Assembly (NCBI RefSeq): GCF_009602705.1
Contig: NZ_VSWH01000001.1
Coordinates: 2,604,001-2,668,000 of the forward strand
Source of the DNA: Chryseobacterium vaccae
GTDB lineage: Bacteria > Bacteroidota > Bacteroidia > Flavobacteriales > Weeksellaceae
Direction: 5' to 3'
Length of the DNA stretch: 64,000 bases
Under the pieces are notes generated by a model that was given only the letters and a program-made list of their open reading frames with translations, was not told where the DNA came from and did no database searches. Position 1 is the stretch's first letter. Each line of letters starts with the position of its first letter. The translations under genes and the position numbers were made by a program. Positions 25-39,978 of the stretch are shown here, piece by piece.

Positions 25-639
25 ATGAAAATAAAAAATTTTAACACTGAAGGTGTATTAATCATCGCCAATATGACAAAATGCAAGGAATACTATTCCG
101 ATAAGGAATTTGATTATGCCTATCCGGAAGGGCTATCCGAATTAATGATGAAAGGCATTGTTCATATCATCACAACACAGGAAACTGTTAAAAACCTGAG
201 TTTTGTTTTTAATAAAGCAGAAATTGACTTAGATAAATGGAAATACAGGGAATCATATAACTATCTGAATGTGGATGAAGGAGACAAAGTTCTTCTGGTT
301 CCTCACGGTACTTTTACAAGAATGTGCCGGGCCTGGGGCGAAAGCGATACATTAACTGATGAGGACGTTGATAATTTTGAATTTCTAAAGGGAATAATGA
401 CCAAACAGGGCAAAGAAATAACCTTTACTCCGAATTCTATACTGGAAAAAAGGCTTCAGCTCCGTGATGAAGATGAAAAGAAACTCTATGAACACTCACC
501 CCAGATCAACCTGGAAACCGGATTAAACAATATAGATATTTACACCAAAAATAAAAAAGAAATCACATTTATCATTACAAAAACAGACACCGTGGATTCA
601 GATAGAATTACCTTAAAACCGGTTGAACTGATAGGATAA
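25..639 (+). CDS. hypothetical cytosolic protein, 204 aa
   Basis: I do not recognise the family. The product has no signal peptide or membrane segment, is acidic and mixed alpha/beta in composition, and contains a notable RMCRAWGES segment near residues 100-108. The ATG at 25 is the first in the frame and follows an AT-rich leader without a Shine-Dalgarno sequence. The next gene starts 15 bases downstream, so both are probably on one transcript. The leader AACAAAAGACAG recurs just after the stop of the gene ending at 2809, which may mark an old duplication junction. A role as an immunity-type protein would be a guess from context only. Confidence 0.75.
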   Translation: MKIKNFNTEGVLIIANMTKCKEYYSDKEFDYAYPEGLSELMMKGIVHIITTQETVKNLSFVFNKAEIDLDKWKYRESYNYLNVDEGDKVLLVPHGTFTRMCRAWGESDTLTDEDVDNFEFLKGIMTKQGKEITFTPNSILEKRLQLRDEDEKKLYEHSPQINLETGLNNIDIYTKNKKEITFIITKTDTVDSDRITLKPVELIG

Positions 640-654
640 CGATAACAACAGTGT

Positions 655-1443
655 ATGAAAAACAGCATATTATTATTTATTTTAATCTTTTGCAGTATAA
701 AAACATGGGCATGTTCATGTATTTTTGAAAACATTGCTCAGGAATATATGGAAGCCGATTTCGTAGGTATTGTTTCTATTAAAAAAACTTATAACAATAA
801 AACGGTAGAGCTTGCCAAAGACTTTCAGCGAAGTACTTATAAAGCAGATTTAGCTTTTGAAAAAATTTATAAAGGAAATGAATTTGATGTTTTAAACATT
901 TATGGAAAAGCTAATGTGACAGATGATGAACCATTACTTTTCGGAGGCTGCGATTTATATGTTGAAAAAGGAGAAAAATACCTCGTAATCCTCAAGAAAA
1001 ACCAGAATAATGAGTATTGGGCGAGCATGTGCAGCCGGGTAATTTATTTATCTTCAGAACAAAATCCCTTAAGTGATGAATCAGAGAAAATTAATTCATA
1101 TTCAAATTTATTCTCAGGCATTGAAAAATATAAGGAACAGTTTTCCACGTTAAAGTTTGTCAATCTCTACGATAAGACCTTAAGACTGAATCATAAAACA
1201 AATAAGCTGGAATCAGATTTTACAAAACTAAAAATAGGAGATCCTTCCGACAAAATCGGGTTTTATAAAGTCATTTTAAATGATAAGATGAAAATTGACC
1301 ATATTGTCCCCATAAAAAAAGTAGGAACCAGAGATGAAGAAATTGAAGAAATAATCATGAAAAATTTAAGCTTTCCTCAATACGCACATTCTAAAAATAA
1401 ACCTGAGGAACTGTTGATATTGCTGTATTTCCAGGATTTTTAA
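655..1443 (+). CDS. exported TIMP/NTR-like protein
   Basis: A 262-aa exported protein. Cleavage of the signal peptide after WA (residues 18-19) would expose an N-terminal Cys-Ser-Cys (C20, C22). This is the layout of metalloproteinase inhibitors of the TIMP/netrin-module (NTR) fold, where the free N-terminal cysteine chelates zinc. Two further cysteines stand where TIMP partners are expected: C99 in GGCDLY before a KYLVILKK strand, and C126 in SMCSRV. Disulfides C20-C99 and C22-C126 would reproduce the TIMP pattern. A C-terminal region of about 110 residues after the module is unassigned. TWAC is a poor lipobox, so soluble periplasmic or surface location is more likely than lipidation. Protease inhibition is inference. 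Confidence 0.65.
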   Translation: MKNSILLFILIFCSIKTWACSCIFENIAQEYMEADFVGIVSIKKTYNNKTVELAKDFQRSTYKADLAFEKIYKGNEFDVLNIYGKANVTDDEPLLFGGCDLYVEKGEKYLVILKKNQNNEYWASMCSRVIYLSSEQNPLSDESEKINSYSNLFSGIEKYKEQFSTLKFVNLYDKTLRLNHKTNKLESDFTKLKIGDPSDKIGFYKVILNDKMKIDHIVPIKKVGTRDEEIEEIIMKNLSFPQYAHSKNKPEELLILLYFQDF

Positions 1444-1544
1444 ATATATCCGCAGATAACATTTTAGGTTAAGAACAATCTATTTCCTTTAGCTGTCAAT
1501 ATTTTTATACTAATTCTATAAAAATCTGTATCAAATTGAAGTTT

Positions 1545-2174
1545 ATGAAGAAACTACTCTACTTCTTATTACTTATAATTATTGTGGTAAGCTGTACTAC
1601 AATTTCAGCAGAACATCAATATAAAAATACAGATAAAGGAGAATTATACTTTCCCTCTTTCGACAGCAAAAAGTATAAAATTGACTCCATAAATACCGGC
1701 CCAAATGATTCGTTAAGAGAATTTACAAACAAGTGGTATTCTAGGCATTTATATACTTTAAAAGAACCTGTCTTATCCCACAAAAAAGACAAAAATTTAA
1801 ACATAATAAGATTTACGCATTTAGGAACCTGGTCAAATCCTTATTCTTATCGAATAGAACAAGTCGGATTAAAATTCATTTTAACTTATAATAAAACAAA
1901 TGGATTAGGTGGTTACGAACCTGGAACAAGGACCAGTCATAAAACAAAAGAAATAAGTCAGAAAGAATGGAATAAAATAATAACAAAAATGGATAAAATT
2001 AATTTTTGGAATATTCCAACTCATGGTTCAAATAAAATAACAGATGGTTCAGAATGGATTTTTGAAGCATTAATTGATGGAAAATATCATTTGGTAACAA
2101 GAAACAGTCCAGACCATTATAACGGAGAAGAATATGCTGAACTTTGCAAACTTGTTGAAAAAATAGGTAAATAA
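1545..2174 (+). CDS. hypothetical lipoprotein
   Basis: A 209-aa protein beginning MKKLLYF, with a hydrophobic stretch and lipobox VVSC at residues 15-18, so it is probably lipid-anchored. The frame is open back to a TTG at 1536, but the ATG at 1545 gives a canonical signal peptide and is preferred. The mature part is rich in Lys, Asn and Trp (KEWNKI, FWNIPT, GSEWIFEALIDGKYH). The last 60 residues look like a small beta-rich domain seen in Bacteroidota lipoproteins of unknown role. No catalytic motif was identified. Confidence 0.7.
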   Translation: MKKLLYFLLLIIIVVSCTTISAEHQYKNTDKGELYFPSFDSKKYKIDSINTGPNDSLREFTNKWYSRHLYTLKEPVLSHKKDKNLNIIRFTHLGTWSNPYSYRIEQVGLKFILTYNKTNGLGGYEPGTRTSHKTKEISQKEWNKIITKMDKINFWNIPTHGSNKITDGSEWIFEALIDGKYHLVTRNSPDHYNGEEYAELCKLVEKIGK

Positions 2175-3533: not shown

Positions 3534-3544
3534 ATTTTTGAGAT

Positions 3545-3689: not shown

Positions 3690-3783
3690 TCTTTCGGCTT
3701 ATGAATTACATAAAATGATTAAGCTTATAGAACTAATAACACGAAAACTGTAAATCATGAGCAACAACTAATTTCAGCTGCAC

Positions 3784-3799
3784 AAAGTCTCCCGGCTTT
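3784..3799. repeat. second copy of AAAGTC hairpin element
   Basis: AAAGTC-TCCC-GGCTTT: the same 4-base loop geometry as the copy at 2856, with a 6-bp stem including one G-U pair, and the same GC(T/A)GCAC lead-in. Confidence 0.6.
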
Positions 3800-3897
3800 A
3801 ATCTTATACAATAAAAGTAAATCCGTTAAAATTCGTTCTGAAGTCTTAGATTTCTGAAACCGGGATTTATAAATTCTCAATATTTAAAACAGGAAAA

Positions 3898-4461
3898 ATG
3901 TCTCATTTATGTGAAGTCATCATTATTGCTGTCCCTCCTTCAAACATGAAAGATGTATTTGACAGTATGCACAATAGTTTTACAAAGAATCATTTTGAAA
4001 TTGATGCAGGAGAATTTGATGCAATTGTTCTTTCCGACATTGATACTGATGATGGCGAGGATTATATATTTGAGTCTGAAAGAATCAATCCCGAATCAGA
4101 GGAAGAAAAAGATAATGCCATTGAAAGGCTTAGAAATCACAGAACCGGAGGGCTGATTTATTACAGTGGAATTGATGAGAAATTTGAAGGACTGGCTCCT
4201 TACAATCTTGCCGTTGAGTTTCTGTCATTAGATAATATGACCATTGAATGTATCTCCATCAGCTTAAGAAATTATGTATTCGATTCTCATGAAACTGCTT
4301 TTGAAAATCTGATTACAACCGTTTTAAATACAATGAATGTGATTGGTATTGCTAAAGGTTTAGACTACCCGTACGAATGGAGTGATCAGGAAGTTACTGA
4401 ACTGATGAAGGAAGGAAAACTTGAAACCGTCCACCCCCGGTTAGTCTATAAAAAAGAATAA
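3898..4461 (+). CDS. hypothetical protein, tandem paralog A
   Basis: A 187-aa soluble protein of unknown function. By my count it is about four-fifths identical to the next gene, from which it is separated by 19 bases. It starts with a hydrophobic strand (EVIIIAVPPS), then an acidic region (DIDTDDGEDY), a conserved ERLRNHRTGG turn, and an identical C-terminal third (HETAFENLITTVLN... then GLDYPYEW). The bases before both ATGs (AACAGGAAAA and AACAGAAAA) are also similar, so the duplicated unit includes the leader. Recent tandem duplication in an array of small proteins would fit diversifying immunity genes, but no family supports that. Confidence 0.75.
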   Translation: MSHLCEVIIIAVPPSNMKDVFDSMHNSFTKNHFEIDAGEFDAIVLSDIDTDDGEDYIFESERINPESEEEKDNAIERLRNHRTGGLIYYSGIDEKFEGLAPYNLAVEFLSLDNMTIECISISLRNYVFDSHETAFENLITTVLNTMNVIGIAKGLDYPYEWSDQEVTELMKEGKLETVHPRLVYKKE

Positions 4462-4480
4462 AAAACCTAAAAACAGAAAA

Positions 4481-5047
4481 ATGTCTCATTTAAGTGAAGT
4501 CATCATCATTGCCGTCCCTCCTTCAGACATGAAAGATGTATTTGACAGTATACACAATAGTTTTACAAAGAATCATTTTGAAATTGAAGAAGGAGATTTT
4601 GATGTAATTGTTCTTTGTGATATTGATACTGATGATGGTAAAGATTATATATTTGAGTCTGAAAGCATTTATCCCGCATCAAAGGAAGAAAAAGACAATG
4701 CCATTGAAAGGCTTAGAAATCACAGGACCGGAGGACTGCTTAATTACAGAGGAATTGAAGGAAAATTTGAAGGGTTGCCCCCTTATGATATTGGCGTTGA
4801 GTTTCGGTCATTAGATAATATGACCATTGAATATATTACCATCACGATAAGAGATTATATATTCGATCCTCATGAAACTGCTTTTGAAAACCTGATCACA
4901 ACCGTTTTAAATACAATGAATGTGATTGGTATTGCTAAAGGTTTAGACTACCCGTACGAATGGGATGAAGAAGAAATTACTGAGCTAATCAAGGAAGGAA
5001 AACTTGAAACCGTACATCCCCGGTTAGTCTATAAGAAAAAGTATTAA
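4481..5047 (+). CDS. hypothetical protein, tandem paralog B
   Basis: A 188-aa partner of the preceding gene, with the same order of segments. Differences cluster in the middle (residues 36-66, 86-125), while a run of about 30 residues ending in GLDYPYEW is identical. Many changes are conservative, which suggests both copies are under selection rather than one decaying. The following small gene starts 4 bases after the stop, so the pair and that gene are likely co-transcribed. Function unknown. Confidence 0.75.
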   Translation: MSHLSEVIIIAVPPSDMKDVFDSIHNSFTKNHFEIEEGDFDVIVLCDIDTDDGKDYIFESESIYPASKEEKDNAIERLRNHRTGGLLNYRGIEGKFEGLPPYDIGVEFRSLDNMTIEYITITIRDYIFDPHETAFENLITTVLNTMNVIGIAKGLDYPYEWDEEEITELIKEGKLETVHPRLVYKKKY

Positions 5048-5867: not shown

Positions 5868-6638
5868 ATGAATAACAACGACATATTAAGCCAGATAGAG
5901 TACCTGAAAGATTGTAAAGGACTGCCAGGCAGCAGATTGGAAAATTTAGGACAACGTATTTATGACAAAATAAAAAGCATCATCCAGAATCCTAATCTAT
6001 TCATCACACATTTATATATTCCTCAGGGATCGGCAGAAAATGCTCAAATGTTAGAAAGTCAATTCAAACAATTGTTTAACAAAGAAATTGATGCTGAATT
6101 ATTATCATTCTATCACTGTTTTGATGGGTTTGAATTTCGGTATATCAATCCGGCGAAGGTTTGGGATGAATTTGATAAATACGAAATCACTGACTGGGAT
6201 GAATTTGATATAGATCCGGATACTTTGAGTTATGCCGATATGATTAAAAATGAAGCCTATGAAGAAGAAGTAAAAGATGAGTTTCATTCTTTAATAGGAT
6301 TGTACTTTGATGAACCAGCTTTCAATAACCGGCTGTCAGATCCAGATAAATTGAAAGATTTTTTATTTTATAATGAATCTATTGAGCTGAACGATTTAGG
6401 AATGAAGACTCTTATTCCGCCGGCTCTGCAATTATTTTCAGAGGGAAACAAAGTTCCACATCATCCTGATCACACTCATGTTTTTTACTTTGATTATTTT
6501 GAGTTCTGGAATCAGACTGTCTTTGGTAAAAAAGATCATAATATTGCTATGTATGCAGGAACAGATTATTCTGCTTCAATAGAAAACTGGGAATTTAATG
6601 AAGTTTTCCCGTTCATGCAGAAAAGATTAATCAAATAA
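5868..6638 (+). CDS. SMI1/KNR4 (SUKH) family protein
   Basis: A 256-aa protein with the SUKH core around residues 55-90: ESQFKQLFNKEIDAEL then LSFYHCFDGFEFRYINP. This matches the E--E--LG--LP-dl--fY---NG pattern of the superfamily. Many bacterial SUKH proteins are immunity proteins that neutralise secreted nuclease or deaminase toxins, acting in the cytosol. An acidic middle (WDEFDKYEITDWDEFDIDPD) and a C-terminal aromatic segment (HVFYFDYFEFWNQTVFG) complete the protein. No toxin gene is adjacent, so if it is an immunity protein it is an orphan. Confidence 0.75.
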   Translation: MNNNDILSQIEYLKDCKGLPGSRLENLGQRIYDKIKSIIQNPNLFITHLYIPQGSAENAQMLESQFKQLFNKEIDAELLSFYHCFDGFEFRYINPAKVWDEFDKYEITDWDEFDIDPDTLSYADMIKNEAYEEEVKDEFHSLIGLYFDEPAFNNRLSDPDKLKDFLFYNESIELNDLGMKTLIPPALQLFSEGNKVPHHPDHTHVFYFDYFEFWNQTVFGKKDHNIAMYAGTDYSASIENWEFNEVFPFMQKRLIK

Positions 6639-7890: not shown

Positions 7891-8403
7891 ATGATGGGCA
7901 AAAAACAATTATTTCATATCATCTGGACCACGTATCAGGAATATCCTGTATGGGATAAAAATGGAAACTGGCAAAAGCTTGTGGATGCTTACACAGTGCT
8001 GCAGGATCATCATATAAACTGTAATTTATCCCATGAACTGCCAGCCGGATATATCAACAAAAGTTCCCGGGAGGAACGGCTTTTGCTCAATGAAAAATCG
8101 ATGGCCCAGTTAAAACTTGATATTGAAAAGGTTTGCCGGAAAAACGGAGACCGAATTATTGACGGGCTTGAAATCAAAATGCTCAACGTCAGAGAATCAA
8201 AAGTTGAAATACTGGCATTCTCTCCAACAGAATCAATCACTCAGAAAATTTCAAGATTAAAAAGCATCACCTCATCACTCTTACGCTCAAAATACCCTGA
8301 AGAATTTTTTGGAAAGGGAACCTGGGGAAAAGGATTTTGGTATTCAAATATTTTCAACAAAGAAGATCTGGCAGTTTCAATCATTAAAAACCACTGTCAA
8401 TAG
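7891..8403 (+). CDS. Y1 (IS200/RAYT-like) transposase-fold protein without catalytic residues
   Basis: A 170-aa protein whose layout follows IS200/IS605-type Y1 transposases. An N-terminal strand (LFHIIWTTYQEYPVW, compare HLVW-TK-R-PVF) leads to a helix, then the GLEIKMLNV strand. Where the HUH motif (DHVHLLIE) belongs it has ESKVEILAF, followed by the family-like SPTESITQKISRLKSITSSLLRS helix and a GKGFWYSNIF segment. Neither HUH histidine is present, and the Tyr of the terminal YI-NQ helix is replaced by Ile (SIIKNHCQ). It therefore cannot cleave DNA in the known way and may be a domesticated nucleic-acid-binding protein. No terminal repeats flank it. Confidence 0.65.
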   Translation: MMGKKQLFHIIWTTYQEYPVWDKNGNWQKLVDAYTVLQDHHINCNLSHELPAGYINKSSREERLLLNEKSMAQLKLDIEKVCRKNGDRIIDGLEIKMLNVRESKVEILAFSPTESITQKISRLKSITSSLLRSKYPEEFFGKGTWGKGFWYSNIFNKEDLAVSIIKNHCQ

Positions 8404-10503: not shown

Positions 10504-11166
10504 ATGGGGTTTTTCAGCAGAAAAAAAACATTTAAAATCAGAGATGTAGAATTTTATTCTGAGGGTAATGATCATTATTCCAAAGGATTAAAACCTTCTA
10601 TTAAGAAAGAGTTAAAAATTTCAAAAAACAATCTTACATTAGAGCAGTTAAAACCCATTCTGCAATATCTTGTGGAATTTATTCAGGATGAAAAACCGGA
10701 TATTAAAAACGGAGAAAAAATAACCTGCTTCTCATGGTGTATTTTATTTCATGAAGATCAGGACTTTTTCGAAATTCTTGAAGTAATCCCGGAACAGCAG
10801 GGATTTGGCGAAGGGCTTAGCCGCACGCTTCATATACTGGAGCAGCAGCTTTCCGTTTGTAATCAGCTAAAAGTAGAACCGAATTTTCCTGATTTTGACG
10901 AGATCGTTACCGTAGATCCTTTACTAAAAACAGGGCTACAGGCCAATTTATTCCGCTGGAAAGGAGATTACCCGGATTCCGGGTGGGTAGCTATGAGCGA
11001 TAGCTTTAATGAAGAAACCATGTCTTTCGAAGAAATGACTGTAGGGCAGCTGATGACTTTAAGACCGGAAATCGTCCAGTTTACAGCTCTTCCAATGGGA
11101 TTTAAAGTGATTTGGGAAGGCAGTAATGCAAAAATAGGGTTTGACAAGCAATTGATAGAAAGCTAA
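10504..11166 (+). CDS. hypothetical protein, possible DUF2185/Imm33-like C-terminus
   Basis: A 220-aa cytosolic protein. Starts MGFFSRKKTFKIRDVEFY. The C-terminal part (DYPDSGWVAMSDSFNEE... then VGQLMTLRPEIVQFTALPMGFKVIWEG) resembles the SGW-----E ... L---P-i---l--p-G--f pattern of DUF2185-type (Imm33) immunity proteins. The N-terminal 130 residues have no assignment and include an acidic LEQLKPILQYLVEFIQDEKPD helix. The match is by eye only. Confidence 0.55.
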   Translation: MGFFSRKKTFKIRDVEFYSEGNDHYSKGLKPSIKKELKISKNNLTLEQLKPILQYLVEFIQDEKPDIKNGEKITCFSWCILFHEDQDFFEILEVIPEQQGFGEGLSRTLHILEQQLSVCNQLKVEPNFPDFDEIVTVDPLLKTGLQANLFRWKGDYPDSGWVAMSDSFNEETMSFEEMTVGQLMTLRPEIVQFTALPMGFKVIWEGSNAKIGFDKQLIES

Positions 11167-11248
11167 ACCCCATATAACAGGTATTGATTTCCGAGAGCAT
11201 TTTATGAAAACCTCCGGACCTCCATACCATTTAATTAAAAATGAAATC

Positions 11249-12286
11249 ATGAGTGAATTTTCAGGGTATGAAAAAATGCCCAACAGCTTAAAAAAATTAG
11301 GGTTGAACGAGAATGATTTTTCCCAGATGGAAAAATTAAAGTGGGTGGTGACCGAAAAAGTTCACGGCGCTAACTTCAGTTTCATCTATGAAAACGGTCA
11401 TTTAAAATTCGCCAAAAGAAAAGAATACCTTAACTGGGCCGACGATTTTTTCGGTTTTCAATTGGTTGTCAACAAACTGGAAGATAACATCCTGCGTCTT
11501 TTTGAACATATAAACAGCAAAATAACCGCAGAGAAATATATTATTTATGGTGAATTGTTCGGCGGTAAATATCCTCACCCGGAAGTCAGTCCTGTAAAAG
11601 ATGTGCATGCCATCCAAACCGGAGTATATTATACCCCGGCCATTGAATTCTGTGCTTTTGATATTGCAATTGAAACCGATGGCTCTGGTTCCAAATATTA
11701 TCTGGATTATGAAACCTCAGTCACCTATTTCAAGCAGTTCGGAATATTTCACGCACAGCCGTTATTCATTGGAAAATTCAATGAAGCGATGAATTTTAAC
11801 ATCAGAATGAACTCAACCGTTCCTAAAGAATTTAATCTTCCGGAACTGCAGGATAATTTAATTGAAGGCGTTGTGATAAAACCTTTTAACCAAACAGATC
11901 ATAGTCTCTTTTCAAGACCGGTCGTTAAATTGAAAAATCCGGAATTTGATGAAGAGGATAAATTTCATGAGGCCGAAAAGTGGTCTTTTATTCCTAATAT
12001 TTCCTCTAAAACAGAAGATTTATCTTTTATTGTAGAGGAACTGAGAAACTATGTTACTCTAAACCGATTAAAAAGTGCAATTTCCAAAATAGGTGAGCTG
12101 GATATGAACAACCAACTCCGGGTTTCTGAAATTAAAAAAGAATTTTTAGAAGATGTAATCACAGATTTTAATGAAAACAATGCCAATCTTTTAAACGATT
12201 TATCTCCCGATGACAAAGAATGGATCATCACAAGAGTGAATTCTGAGATTCATAAAATAATCACTGTGGATCCGGCAGATATTTAG
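11249..12286 (+). CDS. Rnl2-family RNA ligase
   Basis: A 345-aa ATP-dependent RNA ligase that joins 3'-OH and 5'-phosphate RNA ends, typically in nicked duplex RNA. Nucleotidyltransferase motifs are in order: motif I TEKVHGANF (nucleophile K37), motif III YIIYGELFGG (E102), motif IV EGVVIKP (E206, K211), motif V VVKLKN (K227, K229). The C-terminal 110 residues are helical, as in T4 Rnl2 (334 aa). The frame opens at an ATG at 11204, but starting at 11249 (MSEFSGYEKMP) aligns with T4 Rnl2, whose lysine is at 35. No partner kinase-phosphatase is adjacent. A role in repairing toxin-cleaved RNA is inference. Confidence 0.88.
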   Translation: MSEFSGYEKMPNSLKKLGLNENDFSQMEKLKWVVTEKVHGANFSFIYENGHLKFAKRKEYLNWADDFFGFQLVVNKLEDNILRLFEHINSKITAEKYIIYGELFGGKYPHPEVSPVKDVHAIQTGVYYTPAIEFCAFDIAIETDGSGSKYYLDYETSVTYFKQFGIFHAQPLFIGKFNEAMNFNIRMNSTVPKEFNLPELQDNLIEGVVIKPFNQTDHSLFSRPVVKLKNPEFDEEDKFHEAEKWSFIPNISSKTEDLSFIVEELRNYVTLNRLKSAISKIGELDMNNQLRVSEIKKEFLEDVITDFNENNANLLNDLSPDDKEWIITRVNSEIHKIITVDPADI

Positions 12287-12345: not shown

Positions 12346-12672
12346 ATGAACTTCACAATACAATTTCTGAAAGAAAAACAGTCTCAACTGATAGAGCAGT
12401 TGCGGAACGAAAATGCAAGCATACCCGAAACATTGCAGCAAAAGAAAGACATTGACAAAGCCATTGCCTGGCTGGAAAACATTGAGAAACATCATCTGGA
12501 ATATCCTACCCACTACGAATGGGTAGAGCTTCCATGGATGAAAACCGGCTACTTTACCGATTATCGCATTATGAATGATTGTGAAACGGACGACCGACAA
12601 TATTGGATTGAGTTTAAACCACCATTTACCGTTACGCCCTTGGACTTTTTGCTTATCAAAAAACCAAAATAA
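12346..12672 (+). CDS. small hypothetical protein, 108 aa
   Basis: Family not recognised. It has an N-terminal helix (FLKEKQSQLIEQLRNEN, then QQKKDIDKAIAWLENIEKHH) followed by an aromatic beta region (HYEWVELPWMKTGYF, RQYWIEFKPPFTVTP). It is cytosolic and begins 59 bases after the RNA ligase. An antisense open frame covers this gene, but its composition (Phe/Cys/Leu-rich) marks it as a shadow. A truncated hairpin element (GCTGCGCAAAGTCTC) follows its stop. Confidence 0.6.
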   Translation: MNFTIQFLKEKQSQLIEQLRNENASIPETLQQKKDIDKAIAWLENIEKHHLEYPTHYEWVELPWMKTGYFTDYRIMNDCETDDRQYWIEFKPPFTVTPLDFLLIKKPK

Positions 12673-12679: not shown

Positions 12680-12694
12680 GCTGCGCAAAGTCTC
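12680..12694. repeat. half copy of AAAGTC hairpin element
   Basis: GCTGCGCAAAGTCTC matches the left arm and loop start of the element at 2856. The right arm is missing, which suggests truncation. Confidence 0.45.
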
Positions 12695-12810
12695 TTCATA
12701 TAATAAACTGCTATTTTACACAAAAGCAAAACAGCATTCCATTCTAAATATTTGCACAACACGAGCTTTACACGTAGATTTGATCCTTTAGAAAATAAAA
12801 AACTAAGACT

Positions 12811-22768: not shown

Positions 22769-22838
22769 ATAACCTATGAAAAACTTTTTAATCCTTCTCT
22801 TTTTCACCACTTCACTCTCCTGCTTTTCCCAGAAAAAA
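22769..22838 (+). repeat. 70-base direct repeat, copy 1
   Basis: Covers the leader (ATAACC), the start codon and the signal-peptide region. It is identical to 23650-23719 and part of the tandem duplication of the two genes here. Confidence 0.8.
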
Positions 22839-23549: not shown

Positions 23550-23581
23550 AAAACCAATATTAAACATCAACTTTTATTGCC

Positions 23582-23652
23582 TTGAAAATTAAATACAGCT
23601 TTTATTATTTCATCCCTGATTTTCTTCCAAACCTCCTGTAAAGATCAATATA
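23582..23652 (+). pseudogene. remnant lipoprotein leader (frameshifted)
   Basis: TTG AAA ATT AAA TAC begins a basic-hydrophobic leader (KIKYSFYY) that loses frame. In the shifted frame it continues ISSLIFFQTSCKDQY, a lipobox-like ending. Together they read as a broken lipoprotein start similar to MKLNTVFYL...LSCKEK at 24465, left between the two duplicated genes. Confidence 0.4.
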
Positions 23653-23719
23653 ACCTATGAAAAACTTTTTAATCCTTCTCTTTTTCACCACTTCACTCTC
23701 CTGCTTTTCCCAGAAAAAA
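23650..23719 (+). repeat. 70-base direct repeat, copy 2
   Basis: Identical to 22769-22838. It contains the leader, ATG and signal-peptide codons of the second paralog. Confidence 0.8.
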
Positions 23720-24430
23720 AGAGATACCCTTTCCTATTATAACAGCTATGAACCCACAAAAGCTGAGTTGAGAAAATGTGAGAAAATACAGAAAAAAAAT
23801 AAAGAATTATTTGACCAGCTGTCTGAAGAAGCAAAAAATACCGATTTTAAAAAATTAACGTCTGTCATTATTAATGATTTAAGTAATTCTGATTTCAAAG
23901 GAGAGGTTATATTATTCTATGTTACCTACAGCAATACAGTATGTGGTAATATGGATGATGACAAATTCATTTGTGAAAAAGAATATAATACAACCAATCC
24001 GTTTTACAGCGGCCGGAACTGGACGTATGATGATCTTATTTCCTTGTCGAAAGTTCTCAACGAAAAAATTATTGTTCCCAGTGAAAAAAATTTCGGATTC
24101 AGTATTTCCAACAGATTATTTGGCGCAGACCAGGAGAAAGAATTTAGTCCGTATAAAGAATTCAAAATCGGTATGGTGAAGGATCAGGAAGTAAACAAAG
24201 GGAACGAAAAATTCTTTTACCTCACCGAAAAAAAACAGGATAAAGACCTAGTGTTACAAACTAATTTTATCTACAATAAAGTATTAAATTATTCCTATGA
24301 TACGCTTTATTTCAAATTTAGAAATCTACCCGGCTATAAAGTACAGGTAACAATAATGATCAATTCGGGTTCCATTTCAAAAACCTATGAATATGATAGC
24401 GGAGAATGGCTTTTAACTGACACAGAATAA
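23657..24430 (+). CDS. exported hypothetical protein, tandem paralog D
   Basis: A 257-aa duplicate of the preceding gene with the same signal peptide, Cys pair (CGNMDDDKFIC) and C-terminal beta region. Differences are spread through the middle (FSPYKEFKIGMVKDQEVNKG) and the ends of the Cys loop. The duplicated unit includes 7 bases of the leader. Whether the copies bind different partners is unknown. The two genes are separated by a broken leader of a third gene, so duplication and deletion both happened here. Confidence 0.75.
   Translation: MKNFLILLFFTTSLSCFSQKKRDTLSYYNSYEPTKAELRKCEKIQKKNKELFDQLSEEAKNTDFKKLTSVIINDLSNSDFKGEVILFYVTYSNTVCGNMDDDKFICEKEYNTTNPFYSGRNWTYDDLISLSKVLNEKIIVPSEKNFGFSISNRLFGADQEKEFSPYKEFKIGMVKDQEVNKGNEKFFYLTEKKQDKDLVLQTNFIYNKVLNYSYDTLYFKFRNLPGYKVQVTIMINSGSISKTYEYDSGEWLLTDTE
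23788..23924 (+). repeat. 137-base near-identical block, copy 2
   Basis: Counterpart of 22907-23043, encoding the KKNKELFDQLSEEAKNTDF region and following. Confidence 0.75.
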
Positions 24431-25729: not shown

Positions 25730-26233
25730 ATGAACCTTAAAACATTAATCACTCACACTGTACAGTACAACAATTGGGTAGTCAATAAATACATCGACTG
25801 GCTGGCCACAAAATCTGATGCACAGCTCAATCAGGAAACCCCTTCAAGCTTTCCGACTATCCTTAAAACCCTGCATCATATCTGGCAAACTCAGGAATAT
25901 TGGTGGAGCCATATCTCCGAAGGCAACGATTTTGATTTTGAAGCCACCACAGCGGCAGTCACAAAGGATGAAGTTTTCAATGCCATCAAAGATAATTCCA
26001 GGAAATTAATGGAATATGTTGAAGGGCTTTCAGAAGAAGATCTTGCCCAAAACGTGAAGATAGAATCCCAATGGTTTCAGTGTGATTTCTCCAAATATGA
26101 ATACATTCAGCATGCCATCATCCACGGCACTTATCACAGAGGACAAATTGTAACCATGGGAAGAAATATCGGTATTACAGATGCGCCTATGACAGATTAC
26201 AACTTCTGGAATATTTATAAAGATCAGAAATAA
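25730..26233 (+). CDS. DinB/YfiT-type protein
   Basis: A 167-aa four-helix bundle of the DinB (DUF664-like) superfamily. Conserved metal-site residues are seen: LHHIWQTQEYWWSHI with a His, and HAIIHGTYHRGQIVTMGRNIG with the two late His. Many members are thiol transferases or unassigned metal-dependent enzymes. The N-terminal VQYNNWVVNKYIDWL is typical. Located between the CHMI and Arr genes with small gaps (43 and 13 bases), it is likely in the same transcript as Arr. Confidence 0.8.
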   Translation: MNLKTLITHTVQYNNWVVNKYIDWLATKSDAQLNQETPSSFPTILKTLHHIWQTQEYWWSHISEGNDFDFEATTAAVTKDEVFNAIKDNSRKLMEYVEGLSEEDLAQNVKIESQWFQCDFSKYEYIQHAIIHGTYHRGQIVTMGRNIGITDAPMTDYNFWNIYKDQK

Positions 26234-26246: not shown

Positions 26247-26663
26247 ATGAATTCCGATACCATTCAGGATCCTGTTATTTATTATCACGGAACCAAGGCA
26301 GATCTGAAAACAGGTGATCTTATTGAACCCGGTTTCAATTCCAACTACGGAACCAACAGAAAAGCGAAATACATTTACCTTACCGCTACGCTGGAAGCTG
26401 CAACCTGGGGCGCGGAACTGTCACAGGGAGAGGGAAAAGAAAGGATTTATATCGTTGAACCTACCGATCCCATTGAAGATGATCCCAACCTTACCGATAA
26501 AAAATTTCCGGGTAATCCTACAAAATCTTACCGTTCGCTGCATCCGTTCAGAGTAATAGGAGAAGTTATGGAATGGCAGGGGCACTCTGAAGAACAGCTT
26601 CAAACAATGAAAAACCATCTTGAAGAACTAAAAAGACAGGGCATTGAAGCTATTGAAGATTGA
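26247..26663 (+). CDS. arr: rifampin ADP-ribosyltransferase
   Basis: A 138-aa enzyme of the Arr family that transfers ADP-ribose from NAD+ to the C23 hydroxyl of rifamycins. The catalytic triad matches Arr-ms (H19/Y49/D84) with a constant offset of 5: H14 in YHGTK, Y44 in YIYLTATLEAATWG and D79 in IEDDPN. Full family length. It follows the DinB gene by 13 bases on the same strand and shows no attC site or mobile element, so it appears resident. Activity is inferred from family. Confidence 0.9.
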   Translation: MNSDTIQDPVIYYHGTKADLKTGDLIEPGFNSNYGTNRKAKYIYLTATLEAATWGAELSQGEGKERIYIVEPTDPIEDDPNLTDKKFPGNPTKSYRSLHPFRVIGEVMEWQGHSEEQLQTMKNHLEELKRQGIEAIED

Positions 26664-26916
26664 TATTACCAATAAATAACCAGCAAAAACGGGATAGCTT
26701 TTTGAACTCAAAGAAATATTGATGCGGAAATATAGCCAAACTCCCGATATTCCCTATTTTTGCAGAGGCCGGATCATCCCCTGTGCTGTAAAGGCAGTAC
26801 CGAATTTACAGGTTATCCTGAAAATGACGGAGAACACGATGAGACATAAACAGGATTAAAAATTAAAACCAATTATCCCAACTTAAAAAAACTAAAAAGC
26901 TAACCATAAAAATTCA
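26664..26916. other. intergenic stretch with a candidate -7 box
   Basis: No gene is supported. A TATTTTTG box lies at 26755-26762, without a TTG at the usual spacing. One open frame (about 26759-26845) ends in an acidic PENDGEHDET-like reading and may be a decayed gene tail, but this is weak. Confidence 0.4.
26755..26762 (+). promoter_or_regulatory. candidate -7 box (TATTTTTG)
   Basis: Matches the TAnnTTTG consensus, 155 bases before the gluzincin lipoprotein gene. The -33 element is not visible. Confidence 0.3.
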
Positions 26917-29807: not shown

Positions 29808-29945
29808 AATTACAGAAGGAAAAGTCGGAAGAGAAAGGATTAAAGCGGTGACCTATCAATTAAACCTTTAAAACTATTTTGGCTCGAATTTACGTTATTA
29901 TACTACATGTTGTAACTTAAATCTTCAATTTTCAGACCTGTTAAA

Positions 29946-29993
29946 ATGAAAAAGAGCCTGCTGATCCTATTTGCGTTTATTTCAACTCATTAA
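29946..29993 (+). pseudogene. signal-peptide stub (MKKSLLILFAFISTH-stop)
   Basis: A 15-codon frame reads like the first half of a Bacteroidota signal peptide, then stops. The stop overlaps the ATG at 29993 (TAATG). It is best read as the 5' end of a deleted exported-protein gene. Confidence 0.45.
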
Positions 29994-32838: not shown

Positions 32839-33198
32839 TTTCCTGAAATACAACAAAAACATCTGCTGATCTGTGGGAATTTTTATATGCTCGCAGATCC
32901 GGCAGATAAAGCAGATCTCTTAATTTCACCATATTGCAGAGCTACACAAAGCCTCAAATCTATTTTCAAAATGTATAAACCAATTTGAATCTGCATAATT
33001 CTTAGCTGAAAATAGCTGAGAACCTTGGGTTTTCTTGCGCCTTAAAAACAGTATACTATATAAAGCCTTGCGCATTGCACTTACCAACATTCATTTCAAT
33101 TTCCCACAGATCCCGCTGATCACATATATTTTTACAGTCCAACGGGCTATACATACTGATTTTTTGTAATTTAGTTTTTTAAAGACAAAATAATTTCC
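32839..33198. other. intergenic stretch, 360 bases, with inverted repeats
   Basis: No gene. It contains an imperfect inverted-repeat pair (32861-32880 and 33101-33120), GCAGAT repeats at about 32893-32920, a diverged AAAGYCTC hairpin arm (32941-32955) and a TTGCGCCTTAAAAACAG element (33034-33073) similar, in inverse orientation, to 57726-57774. Confidence 0.55.
32861..33120. repeat. inverted-repeat-bounded intergenic element, MITE-like
   Basis: Left end ATCTGCTGATCTGTGGGAA and right end TTCCCACAGATCCCGCTGAT are near reverse complements, including a perfect ATCTGTGGGAA arm of 11 bases, about 220 bases apart. No transposase lies inside and no target duplication was seen. Confidence 0.45.
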
Positions 33199-33978
33199 AT
33201 GGAAAAATATGCAGTATCCTCAGACGGACAGAAAATTTATTATCAGGAAGCAGGAAGCGGAAATCCAACTATCATCTTTATCCACGGATGGTTAGGCAAC
33301 AGTGAATGGTGGAAAGAGCAGCTGGAATATTTCAATGATCAGTATCATATGGTAACCGTGGATCTTGCCGGACATGGAAAATCAGATGCTTCAAGACAGG
33401 ACTGGACCAGCACTCGGTACGCTGACGATATTAAAGCTGTGGCTGACAGTATCAATTCTTCGGAGATTATACTTGTAGGGCATTCTATGTCCGGGGCATA
33501 TGTTCTTGAAGCTGCCTTACAACTTCCAAAAGTAAAATCACTGATCCTGATAGATACTTTGAAAAATCTGGATGAATATTTTTCAGAAGAGCAGGCAGAA
33601 CAGTTCCTATTTACCCATTACAGGAGCGATTTTAAAAATGCGGTAGAAAATATTCTTCCTCAATACCTGTTTGCGGAAAAAACACCTGCAGCAGTAAAAG
33701 AAAGACTCCAAAGCGAATTCTTACAGAACGAACCGGAAATGGCGATCAGCCTTCTGATGCCTTTATATAAAACAGATTTCAGAGACATTGCCAAACAGGT
33801 TCAGATTCCGGTAAGAGCCATTAATTCTGATAATTCTCCTACCCACCTTGAAAATAACCGGAAATATGTAAAAGATTACGATTATGTAACCATTACTGAA
33901 ACCGGCCATTATCCGATGCTGGAGAAACCGGAAGAATTCAACCGCATACTGGACAAGGTTATTAAAGAATTACGCTAA
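33199..33978 (+). CDS. alpha/beta hydrolase
   Basis: A 259-aa cytosolic alpha/beta hydrolase. The family residues are visible: [14 protein letters not shown] (oxyanion strand), [28 protein letters not shown] with nucleophile S96, and [15 protein letters not shown] with catalytic H237. No signal peptide. The lid region after residue 130 ([14 protein letters not shown] type) is helical. It starts after a 360-base intergenic gap, suggesting its own promoter. Substrate unknown. Confidence 0.8.
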
Positions 33979-33989
33979 ACGATATAAAA

Positions 33990-34343
33990 ATGCAGAATAC
34001 AAGAGTTTATGAGATGGCTTTTTCCGGTGTATATCCTCACTACATTCAAAAAGCAGAGAAAAAAGGCCGTACAAAAGATGAAGTTCATGAAATCATATTC
34101 TGGCTGACCGGATATGATGAAAAGAGCCTGCAGAATATTCTGGATAACAAAACCAATTTTAAAACATTTTTTGAACAGGCACCACAAATCAATCCGAATG
34201 TTTCCCTGATTAAAGGCGTTATCTGTGGATATCGTGTAGAGGATATTGAAGATGAATTAATGAGAAATATCCGGTATCTGGATAAACTCATTGACGAACT
34301 GGCCAAGGGGAAAAGGATGGAGAAAATATTAAGAACACCCTGA
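33990..34343 (+). CDS. DUF2200 family protein
   Basis: A 117-aa protein matching DUF2200: [32 protein letters not shown] is the family start, with [18 protein letters not shown] following and [40 protein letters not shown] at the end. The protein is helical, cytosolic and of unknown function. It is separated from the hydrolase by 11 bases and probably co-transcribed with it. Confidence 0.85.
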
Positions 34344-35979: not shown

Positions 35980-36936
35980 ATGAAAAACATACAGAGAGAA
36001 GACATTCAGATTCTCAGCAGGTACAGCGATCTCACTGAAAAAGAAGTCGCTGAGATTCTGGAAAAACATATTTACACCGATAAAAGCTCCTGGCAGAAAT
36101 TTCTTCAGTTATTTTTAATGACCCTTGGAATTGGTTTTACCGTATCCGGAATCATTTTTTTCTTTGCCTACAACTGGGCAGATTTACCCAAGTTTGCAAA
36201 AATCGGACTGACAGAAGGGTTGGTTATTGCTGCAACTGCACTTACCTTTCTTCCTAAAATCAATCCTAATATCCGGAAAATTATTCTTACCGGGGCAGCC
36301 GCTTTGGTTGGGGTTCTATTTGCCGTATTCGGGCAGATCTATCAGACCGGAGCCAATGCTTACGATTTCTTTTTAGCATGGACTATTTTTATCACTCTGT
36401 GGGTCATTATCTCTGATTTTGCTCTTTTATGGCTGATCTATATCATTTTAATCAATACCACTTTTGTTTTGTATACCCAGCAGGTGGGCAATGATCAGGG
36501 GCCGATTTATGTTTTTACCATTCTGTTTTTGTTGAATGGGATGATATTAGTATCGGGCATTCTGATTTCCATGTACAAAAAAGCAGTTATACCCAGCTGG
36601 TTTACAAACGTTCTTTCATTAGCTGTTGCCAGCTTTGCCACCTGTGGAATCGTTATCGGAATTTTTGATAATCAGACCTCAGCACTAGCTATTCTGGCTG
36701 TACCTGTCGTAGTAGTCTATGCCTTAGGAATCCTATATGCATTGAAAGTAAAAAACATCTTTTATCTTGCCGTCATCCCGCTCAGTATTGTCATCATCAT
36801 AACCGTCCTCATCTTCCGGATTACAGGAGAAAATGTAGCTTCATTTTTATTTGTTTCCCTGTTTATATTAGGAAGCATTACACTGGTTATTAAAAATCTG
36901 CTCAACCTTCAAAAAAAGTGGAAAAATGAGAAATAA
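35980..36936 (+). CDS. DUF2157 membrane protein
   Basis: A 318-aa integral membrane protein. The N-terminal cytosolic part (IQREDIQILSRYSDLTEKEVAEILEKH) and following segment WQKFLQLFLMTLGIGFTVSGIIFFFAYNWADLPKFAKIGL are diagnostic of DUF2157. Eight or nine membrane helices follow. In Bacteroidota this gene is usually followed by a DUF4401 and a GDYXXLXY gene, as here. The end overlaps the next start by 11 bases. Function unknown, probably a membrane complex. Confidence 0.85.
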   Translation: MKNIQREDIQILSRYSDLTEKEVAEILEKHIYTDKSSWQKFLQLFLMTLGIGFTVSGIIFFFAYNWADLPKFAKIGLTEGLVIAATALTFLPKINPNIRKIILTGAAALVGVLFAVFGQIYQTGANAYDFFLAWTIFITLWVIISDFALLWLIYIILINTTFVLYTQQVGNDQGPIYVFTILFLLNGMILVSGILISMYKKAVIPSWFTNVLSLAVASFATCGIVIGIFDNQTSALAILAVPVVVVYALGILYALKVKNIFYLAVIPLSIVIIITVLIFRITGENVASFLFVSLFILGSITLVIKNLLNLQKKWKNEK

Positions 36937-37996
36937 AGAAAATATAAAAGAGTTGATGGATGCTCTCCGGACATCAACTGAAAGGGAAATCCATTTTGAT
37001 GAAGAAGCTATTGTTTCAGTCTATCAGAAAAAAGAAACGGACCAGTCATTAGCCATCAAAATATTATCTATTTTCGGAGGGATACTCGCCTGTCTGGCAT
37101 TTATCGGATTTCTTTTCTTAGCCCAGATATTCAGTTCAAAAGAAGGAATTATTCTATTTGGAGGAATCTGTATTGCAGGTTCTGCGGTTCTCAGCAGGTT
37201 TTCAAAGAAAGTAATAACAGACACTCTATCTGTTTCATTTTATGTTGCGGGATTTTCACTTCTCGGGTTTGGTCTTTCCAGTCACGATAACACCATGCAG
37301 CTTACCTTTATAGGCATTGCATTATGTGTATTGCTTCTGGTTCACAATTATATTCTTTCCTTCATTTCTGTACTCATTCTCAATGGAAGTATACTGTCAC
37401 TTATTATCACCAACGATTTATATGATCTAACCTATATATTCATTACAGTTCAGGCACTCATCGTCACCTTTATTTTTCTTAACGAAGCAAAGATCATCAC
37501 CGCCAACAGAATTCTCTCCGGATTATACGATCCCGTTTGTATAGGAATGACGTTATCATTCATAGCCGGGCTGGGCTATATTGGATTTGAAGATGAATTA
37601 TCCATACCAGTGCTGACACTCTACAACGGGTTATCCTCGGCAGTGATCATTCTGGCTGTTCTGTATGTAGTCTCTGTTTTATTAAAAAAATTACAGGTTA
37701 CCCATTCCCGTTTCAAGATCATCATTTATGTATTGACCGCTTTAATTTTATTGCCAACAACATTATCTCCGGCAATATCCGGCGCCATTCTTGTTATTTT
37801 ACTAAGCTTCCTTGTCAACAATAAAACCGGATGGGTACTGGCTTGTGTAGCTCTGATTTCTTTCATCGGAAAATTGTATTACGATCTTCAGTTTACACTG
37901 CTGACTAAATCCATCCTTTTATTTTCTTCGGGGATCATGTTCCTGGCAATTTATGCATTCATCCACAAAAAACTGATTTCCCATGAAAAAATATAA
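36926..37996 (+). CDS. DUF4401 membrane protein
   Basis: A 356-aa membrane protein with an N-terminal cytosolic segment (TEREIHFDEEAIVSVYQ) and about ten membrane helices (IKILSIFGGILACLAFIGFLFLA first). It overlaps the DUF2157 gene by 11 bases and the GDYXXLXY gene by 14, so all three are translationally coupled. The family is known only as the partner of DUF2157. No catalytic motif. Confidence 0.85.
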   Translation: MRNKENIKELMDALRTSTEREIHFDEEAIVSVYQKKETDQSLAIKILSIFGGILACLAFIGFLFLAQIFSSKEGIILFGGICIAGSAVLSRFSKKVITDTLSVSFYVAGFSLLGFGLSSHDNTMQLTFIGIALCVLLLVHNYILSFISVLILNGSILSLIITNDLYDLTYIFITVQALIVTFIFLNEAKIITANRILSGLYDPVCIGMTLSFIAGLGYIGFEDELSIPVLTLYNGLSSAVIILAVLYVVSVLLKKLQVTHSRFKIIIYVLTALILLPTTLSPAISGAILVILLSFLVNNKTGWVLACVALISFIGKLYYDLQFTLLTKSILLFSSGIMFLAIYAFIHKKLISHEKI

Positions 37997-38468
37997 ATGG
38001 CTCATCATTCTTTTCAATCTCATCCTGTTATTGGGATACTTTAATTATTCGGTTATCAAAAAAGAAGATTTGCTTAAAAATGGGCAGCTGATTTTACTGG
38101 AACTTGCCCCTGTAGATCCGCGGTCACTGATGCAGGGTGATTATATGAGTTTAAGATATGCTATTGTCAACACTATCGGAACAGAAGGTATTCTGAAGCG
38201 CGGTTACTGCGTAGTAACTCTTGATAAAAACGGGGTGGCTCATAGAGGACGGTTTCAGGAAAACAAAACCCCGTTGAAAGCTGGTGAATACCTTATTAAT
38301 TACACCTCTGATGACTGGAATGTCAATATCGGTGCAGAATCTTTTTTTTTCCAGGAAGGACATGCCAAAAAATATGAAACAGCAGCGTACGGCGGTATAA
38401 AAATTGATGGAAACGGAAACAGTTTACTCATAGGGCTTTATGATAAAAATCTCAAAAAGATCAACTAA
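37983..38468 (+). CDS. GDYXXLXY domain protein
   Basis: A 161-aa protein with one N-terminal membrane anchor (KWLIILFNLILLLGYF). The defining motif GDYMSLRY (about residues 52-59, after MQ) matches GDYxxLxY. It is anchored to the periplasmic face and probably part of the membrane module with the two upstream genes. It overlaps the DUF4401 gene by 14 bases, and its stop is directly followed by the next ATG. Confidence 0.85.
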   Translation: MKKYKWLIILFNLILLLGYFNYSVIKKEDLLKNGQLILLELAPVDPRSLMQGDYMSLRYAIVNTIGTEGILKRGYCVVTLDKNGVAHRGRFQENKTPLKAGEYLINYTSDDWNVNIGAESFFFQEGHAKKYETAAYGGIKIDGNGNSLLIGLYDKNLKKIN

Positions 38469-39011
38469 ATGAATCAGTGGAATTATTTTTTCGGAGCCAT
38501 TATGCTGGATTCCGATTACAAGGGTTTTCTTGATTTTCTTCAAAACAGGATGAAAGCTAAGGACTACTATTATTTTCATCCCGATATATTTTCTACATCT
38601 ACCCTGGAAATTCCTTACTGCTATGAAAACGCTCTGATTTCTTTCGGAAGAACAGCCAAATGGTTTCTTCAGTATGAATACGACCTTCATCACTTCATCC
38701 GGGAATTTGAAGACATTTTAAATCACCTGGATTTTGAATATGCACAGGTAAGAGCAGGAACCGTTTATTCAGAATATTCATTTTTCTGGATGAATAAGAA
38801 AAAGCTGGGAAAATATAAAACAAGGATCCAGGAAACAGAAGATCATTTTAAAGAATATAACATCCGTTTTTATGAAAATGAACATTTCTTTTTCGGATTA
38901 GGTGATATTGAATTATCTACAGGCTGGTGTGAAAGAAAAAATGATGATGCGGAAGATTTTGATATTCAGTATCCGGACTTTAAATATCCTGTTGAGCAGA
39001 TTAACCGTTAA
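38469..39011 (+). CDS. hypothetical cytosolic protein, 180 aa
   Basis: The ATG begins immediately after the previous stop (TAA-ATG), so translation is coupled. The product is soluble, rich in Phe, Tyr and Glu, with KGFLDFLQNRMKAKDYYYFH and EYDLHHFIREFEDILNHLDFEYAQ segments, an EENLHFFFGL-like end and no membrane segments. Family not recognised. As the fourth gene of the DUF2157 unit it may be a cytosolic accessory, but it is not a usual partner. Confidence 0.65.
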   Translation: MNQWNYFFGAIMLDSDYKGFLDFLQNRMKAKDYYYFHPDIFSTSTLEIPYCYENALISFGRTAKWFLQYEYDLHHFIREFEDILNHLDFEYAQVRAGTVYSEYSFFWMNKKKLGKYKTRIQETEDHFKEYNIRFYENEHFFFGLGDIELSTGWCERKNDDAEDFDIQYPDFKYPVEQINR

Positions 39012-39120
39012 AACGCTTCTCCATCTCAAAAAACTTCCCGAAATTAGCGGCCTGTACGTTAAATAGAAAATAGTGAAATAAAAAAATTAAAGTAAACATA
39101 CAGCAAAACTTAGGATAAGT

Positions 39121-39240
39121 TTTCTTCGGGGCAGGGTGAAATTCCCTACCGGCGGTTACAGTCCGCGACTCCTTTCTTCTGAAGGGACTGATCTGGTGAA
39201 ATTCCGGAACCGACAGTTAAAGTCTGGATGGGAGAAGAAA
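39121..39240 (+). ncRNA. FMN riboswitch (RFN element)
   Basis: The conserved core is clear: TTCTTCGGGGCAGGGTGAAA, a CCCTACCGGCGGTTACAGT block, CCGCGACTC, ACTGATCTGGTGAAATTCCG, CCGACAGTTAAAGTCTGGA and TGGGAGAAGA, with the closing P1 stem between TTCTTC and GAGAAGAA. It binds flavin mononucleotide and represses ribB downstream when FMN is plentiful. It follows the previous gene by about 110 bases. Confidence 0.95.
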
Positions 39241-39333
39241 ATGAAACGGTCAGTAAGATTCCTTACGGGCTTATTGTGCCGTATTTCATTTCCATGTACC
39301 GAAGACTATTTTACCTTTTAAAAGTAAAATAAC
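39241..39333 (+). promoter_or_regulatory. expression platform of FMN riboswitch
   Basis: The stretch after the aptamer holds a long-range stem (ATGAAA-CGG with CCG-TA-TTTCAT), an inner GTAAG-ATTC-CTTAC hairpin and a last ATTTTAC/GTAAAAT hairpin (39308-39330) ending 3 bases before the ribB ATG. No U-run terminator is visible, so control by hiding the start region (translation) is more likely than termination. Inference. Confidence 0.55.
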
Positions 39334-39978
39334 ATGGAAAAATTATTAGAACAATTTGGAGCAACCTCCACAGAACGTGTAGAAAACGCACTTCTTAAAT
39401 TACAACAGGGAAAAGGAATTCTTTTAGTAGATGATGAAAACCGCGAAAACGAAGGCGATATCATCTTTCCCGCATCCACCATTACAGAACAGGATATGGC
39501 ACTGCTGATCCGCGAATGCAGCGGTATTGTCTGCCTATGTATTTCGGAAGAAAAAAGCAGGCACCTGAACCTCCGTCCTATGGTGGAAAATAACAACTCT
39601 AAAAATCAAACCGCTTTTACCATTTCTATTGAAGCCAGAGAAGGCGTAGAATCTGGTGTTTCGGCTAAAGACCGTGTAACCACCATCAGAACTGCGGTGG
39701 CAGCAGACGCACAGGCTGCTCATATTGCAAGCCCGGGACATGTTTTCCCTCTGATTGCTAAACAAAACGGTGTTTTCGAAAGACGCGGACATACCGAAGG
39801 CAGTGTAGATCTTGTAAAGCTCGCCAATCTCGGTGATGATGCCGTACTCTGCGAACTGACCAATGAAGACGGATCAATGGCCCGACTTCCGGAAATCGTT
39901 GATTTTGCCATCAAAAGAGAAATGAGTGTTGTAACCATTGAAGATATTCATGCTTACCGCACAATGATCAGCAACTAA
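39334..39978 (+). CDS. ribB: 3,4-dihydroxy-2-butanone 4-phosphate synthase
   Basis: A 214-aa enzyme converting ribulose 5-phosphate to formate and 3,4-dihydroxy-2-butanone 4-phosphate for riboflavin synthesis. Family residues: [18 protein letters not shown] with the acidic metal site near the start, [10 protein letters not shown], and the end block [22 protein letters not shown] and [14 protein letters not shown]. Length equals that of stand-alone RibB (E. coli 217 aa); there is no GTP cyclohydrolase II (RibA) half. It is controlled by the FMN riboswitch upstream and followed by a hairpin with U-run. No other rib genes are adjacent. Confidence 0.95.

Follow-up and report, generated by a model that had tools for sequence, protein, structure and literature searches.

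The stretch analysed here, referred to as the window, comprises 64,000 nt of Chryseobacterium vaccae (genome G000, contig C1, positions 2604001–2668000; two-contig assembly), and its left part holds a row of small genes that forms the distal portion of a longer array lying between the chaperonin gene groEL and the housekeeping gene ribB. Genes called by codon score from position 25 to 39011 numbered 52, all on the plus strand, with a mean length of 678 nt and a median gap of 42 nt; a 108-aa open reading frame (ORF) on the same strand at 12346–12672 stood outside this set. A first-pass annotation made from the sequence had described a single-strand array of more than 50 small genes, which these calls bear out, and had set its limits at 25 and 39978, which do not hold: the run on one strand begins 14.5 kb upstream of the window, at groEL, and the end of the stretch so delimited is ribB itself, under a flavin mononucleotide (FMN) riboswitch. 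Upstream of the window, as far as groES-groEL, the one-strand region is broken by a single 85-aa minus-strand gene. In a control of two 200-kb blocks of another genome (G150; 170 and 171 genes), the longest co-directional runs were of 20 and 24 genes; because these blocks reach no further, and 48 homologous arrays hold 1113 plus-strand and 49 minus-strand genes, the run in the window is beyond background.

The same locus was compared across 173 congeneric genomes, in 117 of which ribB was found at an E-value of 1e-90. Seven genomes with groEL on another contig, three without groEL among the matches listed, and G003 (1.2 Mb) were dropped; groEL and ribB stood on the same strand and in the same order, 3.5–68.7 kb apart (median 23.9 kb), in 106 of the 107 judgeable genomes, C. 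vaccae included. The 48 arrays that were read are no random sample, nearness, size and assembly having guided their choice. Their 1162 called genes, 21 of the minus-strand ones belonging to one small helix-turn-helix (HTH)-like family, fell into 388 families at 35% identity, of which 226 were singletons and seven occurred in at least 24 arrays. Gene order was largely kept, 93% of 16,871 shared gene pairs being collinear (median Kendall tau 0.83 over 676 array pairs), and a few families, for example the beta-lactamase, change place. The near relatives G099 and G034 differ from C. vaccae in spacers over the full length, where one gene or several have been gained or lost, and two breaks of order were seen in three near-relative comparisons. 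The locus thus behaves between these genomes as the first-pass term 'accretion array' would have it, with conserved flanks, variable content and turnover by one to several genes.

A single similarity group contained 199 of the 602 distinct spacers of these arrays, lying between unrelated genes, and the shared part was the 3' end of groEL (mostly 50–250 nt) with its stop codon and intrinsic terminator; the terminator gave good folds in each of three copies, two of them native and one displaced (z −2.95, −5.74 and −4.81). By profile search, 76 such extra groEL tails were matched in 32 of the 48 arrays, every one on the same strand as groEL and at a median distance of 2.3 kb from it, with outliers reaching 23 kb in G150, 15 kb in G175, 11 kb in G113 and, as one weak match, 38 kb in G034; at least one copy, in G004, accounts for two of these matches. 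The 73 measurable tails started a median of 45 nt after a stop codon (516 nt for random positions), and two started inside an ORF. Consecutive tails enclosed exactly one gene in 45 of 70 intervals, none in 8 and more in 17. Whole-genome searches of seven genomes returned 26 extra tail copies, all within the groEL-ribB interval; the sole match elsewhere, in G113, was weak, 47 bp long, and covered only the part behind the terminator. Among congeners without a ribB match, 5 of 22 had extra tail copies within a few kb of groEL, and among 124 genomes of other genera of the family, 11 had more than one tail match and three had none. Shared boundary sequences, for which the first-pass annotation had proposed a test, therefore exist, in the groEL-proximal part only and outside the window.

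Left edges of 52 independent tail junctions were spread over 200 bp, which weighs against a single recombinase core, since one core would give one left edge. In 13 groups, tails shared their preceding sequence between arrays, and eight of these groups kept the gene-tail junction within 6 bp across species; in the remainder the junction differed or was groEL itself. Thirteen pairs were compared, 11 of them of the same gene family, and in four of the 11 the unit of gene and tail was more alike than the groEL bodies, as in G171/G150 (97.2% over 872 nt against 90.1%) and G017/G138 (97.6 against 94.0); one pair of groEL bodies had been aligned out of register (minimum identity 0.295). Another species' groEL end was a better fit than the resident's for 34 of 38 tails. 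No tyrosine recombinase (PF00589) was found inside any of 25 groEL-ribB intervals, G080 included, and no serine recombinase inside any of 20; tyrosine recombinases occur elsewhere in each genome.

The array is polar. From the groEL side to the ribB side, the proportion of genes confined to a single array fell from 0.55 in the first tenth to 0.08 in the last, and mean gene guanine-plus-cytosine (GC) content rose by fifths from 0.308 to 0.367, with a positive trend in 43 of 45 arrays (three with few genes left out); in the window the trend was weak (rho 0.33, p 0.018, 52 genes). For comparison with anti-phage systems, two sets of 61 genes, each with a single gene for every family, were scanned with PADLOC: a proximal set, in which 41 genes immediately preceded a tail and 20 came first behind groEL, and a ribB-side set, in which three genes were from the window. 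Names from this library and from Pfam are matches and not tested functions. At 1e-5, the proximal set matched 174 families and the ribB-side set one. More weight is given to scans of single genes, because the proximal genes average 292 aa, the ribB-side genes 230 aa, and many PADLOC models match one protein: of 20 proximal genes, chosen mostly for length, seven matched at 1e-10 (GmrSD/Nsn-like, GajA-like ATPase, PDC-M29A, ApeA/PDC-S58, DRT8, PDC-S21 and SoFic) and 13 did not. The joint scan added SduA, an oligonucleotide cyclase and bSEFIR, in none of these 20. Judged by their sequence matches, several proximal genes resemble anti-phage genes. Such matches may form a cluster of the defence-island kind on the groEL side; the zone of the window shows none.

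Pfam families matched among the window genes included RNA ligase, TPR, DoxX, YkuD, DUF1801 (just under the cut-off), B1 beta-lactamase, DUF4272, NAGPA, CHMI, DinB, Arr, GldB/DUF2268, DLH, alpha/beta hydrolase, DUF2200, R2K ATP-grasp, PhyH and DUF2157/DUF4401/GDYXXLXY; about 24 genes had no Pfam family. These genes are neither one system nor a set of immunity genes. Several first-pass assignments were recovered, namely DUF4272, DUF1801, DUF2200 and both resistance enzymes; the B1 metallo-beta-lactamase occurs in 7 of the 48 arrays at differing positions, and by eye it carries a lipoprotein-like signal and is near-identical to the solved structure 9gx8. SUKH, also named there, had no Pfam match in the scanned window genes, the sole one lying upstream of the window, below the cut-off. 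Tandem duplications were found as described, and of the leftover 5' stubs that had been reported one was identified, and an internal remnant was found in another spacer (Table 1). The earlier statement that no transposase is present needs amending for a weak Y1_Tnp match, which scored 25.1 bits against a cut-off of 23, and 22 bits, below the cut-off, in the genome search; the ORF is perhaps a domesticated relative, the usual histidine pair not being evident by eye. The nearest homologues found for the gene at 5868–6638 (73–74% identity) include Flavobacterium proteins, one of them named SMI1/KNR4 at source, which would fit transfer between families; a solved-structure search with this gene returned no match.

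Table 1. Borders and selected features of the groEL-ribB array in C. vaccae (positions in the window; offsets relative to it)
Feature	Position	Strand	Remarks
groES-groEL, upstream border, outside the window	offsets −16827 to −14475		groEL = L004:3900–5525
85-aa gene, HTH-like by eye	L004:7634–7891 (offset −12366 to −12109)	−	family in 21/48 arrays
Distal, tail-free part of the groEL-ribB array	25–39011	+	52 called genes, all +
Tandem duplicate genes, 187 and 188 aa (starts 3898 and 4481)	3898–5047	+	89% over 300 nt; one copy in G099
170-aa ORF, weak Y1_Tnp (IS200-like) match	7891–8403	+	
Imm33-like domain protein	10504–11166	+	sole Pfam immunity match in window genes scanned
T4 Rnl2-type RNA ligase	11204–12286	+	
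Subclass B1 metallo-beta-lactamase	16644–17402	+	11 differences in 232 aa from PDB chain 9gx8_A (by eye)
Spacer; G099 carries an extra 107-aa gene here	21870–22091	+	ends homologous over 71 and 96 nt, centre different
Tandem duplicate genes, 257 aa each (starts 22776 and 23657)	22776–24430	+	82% over 300 nt and 96% over 79 nt
DinB-family gene	25730–26233	+	41/48 arrays, most widespread array member
Arr rifampin ADP-ribosyltransferase	26247–26663	+	28/48 arrays, absent in G034
Spacer with 133-bp internal remnant	26664–26916	+	78% to a gene found in G099
Spacer with 36-bp 5' stub	29808–29992	+	89% to a gene found in G034
Alpha/beta hydrolase and DUF2200 genes	33199–34343	+	28 and 31 of 48 arrays
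DUF2157–DUF4401–GDYXXLXY trio	35980–38468	+	9/48 arrays
FMN riboswitch, part of downstream border	39118–39243	+	
ribB (DHBP synthase), housekeeping, downstream border	39334–39978	+	

We consider it somewhat probable that genes enter at the 3' end of groEL by groEL-anchored recombination, and that the window is the old, distal part of a polar accretion array. Incoming DNA from a related species would pair with the resident groEL, and one new gene would be placed directly behind the intact groEL, its direction fixed to that of groEL because the recombination is anchored there; the far end would join inside the resident groEL end, with the old 3' end and terminator displaced, 5'-truncated, behind the new gene. 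Repeats of this step would build the order groEL, gene, tail, gene, tail. A unit of gene plus tail might then move between species by ordinary homologous recombination (a double crossover in groEL and tail), because both of its ends match the recipient groEL, and crossing over between tails could delete units. Kept genes would drift from groEL while tails decayed and base composition came closer to the genomic one; deletions, together with collinear exchange from array to array, would thin them out. The zone of the window, with no recognisable tails, few defence matches and collinear neighbours, is read as the aged part, in which tails have decayed and genes have been kept, exchanged or deleted; its origin would be the same. 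The variable left edges of the tails would fit one-sided homology with illegitimate joining of the far end.

Free 3' copies were also searched for genes other than groEL. Among 1087 other array genes, two had such copies, both being the first gene after groEL, and a 400-kb control gave seven free partial 3' copies at five genes: one clean case, one with weak matches mostly behind the stop codon, and three tandem relatives. The clean case, one among 300 control genes, is a release-factor-1-like gene (named by eye; G150:C1 about 1018081–1020893; L081:18081–19166, L082:739–893), with the order gene, inserted ORF, displaced own 3' piece (at least 155 bp, 95%); from this one case, the insertion route may be general, with groEL as its main site. 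Carriage of cassettes on plasmids or phages was considered and rejected: the tail query returned three plasmid and six phage records at 69–79% identity, none covering 80% of the query, and these matches fall in a groEL gene where annotated, four of the nine having no annotation there.

Several observations weigh against entry at groEL as an account of the whole array. C. vaccae itself has no extra tail, as is the case for 15 other arrays of the 48; tail score drops only weakly with distance (rho −0.24); and in the distal 70% of the arrays the GC trend is not significant (28/43, p 0.066). New genes end near their own stop codon, a pattern not expected from random end-joining alone, and seven of the 11 same-family pairs show no closer likeness in the unit than in groEL. 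The groEL-ribB distance in G003 is 1.2 Mb, two tails and some array-type genes lying behind its groEL, and in G080, outside the 48, about 44 kb of mixed-strand genes lie between the first tail and three more tails of a 56.7-kb interval, that is, with tails on either side. The left edges show a mild cluster at −116 (p 0.02), in arrays that have tails and a kelch-family gene the tails stop near that gene, 48 lying before it and 3 beyond, and the statistics carry no correction for phylogeny.

Because the tails stop near the kelch-family gene, the zone of the window may have another origin, and the best-placed alternative, which we think unlikely though deserving of weight, is that two zones adjoin: groEL-anchored insertion would operate near groEL, and the window would be an ordinary variable region in which genes are gained and lost by homologous recombination between conserved neighbours and direction is kept by selection (antisense or read-through cost). 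The conserved order of distal genes, the near absence of defence matches there and the scatter of insertions and deletions over the full array agree with this, but orientation is the same on either side, the share of unique genes and GC shift gradually, and the outlying tails of G150, G175, G113 and G034 lie far out.

The 3' ends of tRNA and housekeeping genes serve as attachment sites of genomic islands. A site-specific recombinase, encoded elsewhere or lost, might likewise use the groEL 3' end, the tails then being displaced attachment halves; the origin of all tails from groEL and their confinement to the groEL-ribB locus, the cluster at −116, the tyrosine recombinases elsewhere in each genome and the large insert in G080 are in its favour. 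We judge it a distinctly poorer prospect than two zones, as the 52 left edges span 200 bp, the intervals searched hold neither type of recombinase, and the release-factor-like gene of G150 shows the same pattern of gene, insert and tail.

An orphan-immunity array (a polyimmunity locus or rAID) directed against interbacterial toxins, which the first-pass annotation had thought possible, is very improbable: small co-oriented genes of low GC and variable content, the Imm33-like protein and, as lone matches to families linked with immunity, DUF4272 (so taken by that annotation), ankyrin and a weak upstream SUKH match speak for it, but the scanned window genes hold one Pfam immunity-domain match among many enzymes, lipoproteins and membrane proteins, no tyrosine or serine recombinase was found in the intervals searched, and those proximal genes that match resemble anti-phage systems. 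For the window, orphan immunity is not supported; one of the 61 ribB-side genes matched PADLOC at 1e-5, an indirect test of immunity, the library being one of anti-phage systems.

Entry at groEL was compared with known arrays. Integron arrays consist of single-gene cassettes with a repeated element behind each, grow at one end, run in one direction and have AT-rich newcomers. The groEL array resembles them in all of these respects, but it has no integrase in the interval, its repeat is a housekeeping 3' end of variable length, and its order is conserved between species; with no intI-type tyrosine recombinase in 25 of 25 intervals, an integron was rejected. Neisseria minimal mobile elements place differing whole genes between the same conserved flanks and carry no mobility genes; the groEL array differs in being polar, in its dozens of units and in the displaced tails that derive from one flank.

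In the type VI secretion system (T6SS) immunity arrays of Vibrio cholerae, sequential displacement without an integrase has been described, homology-facilitated illegitimate recombination proposed, and a comparison with integrons drawn by the authors (Kirchberger et al. 2017, PMC5361080). In both kinds of array, on the reading preferred here, additions occur at one end behind a conserved anchor and old pieces are displaced downstream, co-oriented; such anchor 3' pieces are present here (76 tails, 32/48 arrays), C. vaccae being without them. The V. cholerae anchor is a T6SS gene with up to six or seven immunity genes, whereas here the anchor is the chaperonin gene groEL, tail and terminator are displaced together, the genes are unrelated and intervals reach 69 kb. 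By analogy, the junction and unit data fit the homology-anchored insertion proposed for those arrays. T6SS effector-immunity modules as content were not found in the scanned window and proximal genes.

The rAID loci of Bacteroidales (PMC12247911) share with the groEL array long rows of short co-oriented low-GC genes and a recurring intergenic sequence. Their gene length of about 100–300 codons, co-orientation and GC below 41% are matched here (1113/1162; GC 0.31 to 0.37), and the recurring sequence of the groEL array is the groEL 3' end, proximal only. The groEL array differs in lacking an adjacent tyrosine recombinase, in this recurring sequence, in content that is not orphan immunity and in belonging to another class of Bacteroidota; rAID was rejected on the absence of a tyrosine recombinase in 25 of 25 intervals and on content. 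Polyimmunity loci (Zhang et al. 2012, PMC3482391) likewise consist of co-oriented, close-set, strain-variable genes with no toxin genes between; the groEL array differs in its few immunity families in the window, its mixed enzymes and membrane proteins, and its anti-phage genes near groEL. Tandem immunity genes of one or several families were not found in the window genes scanned, and this assignment was set aside as well.

A wider reading, which we advance tentatively and think less probable than entry at groEL as such, is that the locus would form a recombinase-free, integron-like system: the groEL 3' end would be the entry port, cassettes of one gene with a groEL tail serving also as terminator would pass from species to species by homologous recombination, the essential and conserved groEL would offer the whole genus a docking point at which new genes, chiefly anti-phage ones, are tried out, and the genes retained would stand along the distal array in rough order of arrival. 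In one open library, word searches that combined groEL with terms for integration, cassettes or islands found no paper on the locus, and one on minimal mobile elements returned none. If entry at groEL is correct, long polar arrays that run in one direction, as integron arrays do, need no integrase for their growth and can be anchored on the conserved 3' end of a housekeeping gene; this would account for dozens of unrelated genes pointing one way and would provide a trail of gene gain in the genus, and groEL tails would be a simple marker for newly gained genes without a known function, several of which are probably anti-phage.

Further observations concern the neighbourhood of the tails and the spacers. 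The small minus-strand HTH-like family, the main exception to the one-strand rule, usually stands between the tail zone and the remainder of the array. Among the mixed-strand genes of G080 between groEL and array are several long ORFs (G080:C4 about 33000–70000; L101–L103), and the insert is possibly a prophage or other mobile element using the groEL site. In the window, simple scans for promoters and terminators found no more of them than in shuffled sequence; over the spacers of all arrays, a Bacteroidota-type promoter pattern was in excess on the plus strand, being present in 46 of 602, against 15 on the reverse strand and 10.3 in shuffles. A perfect inverted repeat (CCTTGTCAAGGTTTAAAACCTTGACAAGG) stands just before the groEL tails that start at about −116 in G030, G002, G032 and G004. 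Short palindrome-like variants (CAAAGTCTCCnGACTTTG) occur in the window spacers at 2857–2877, 3781–3800, 12684–12696 and 32945–32955, and the 12-mer core CAAAGTCTCCCG of the palindrome-like sequence is present in 20 of the 602 distinct spacers.

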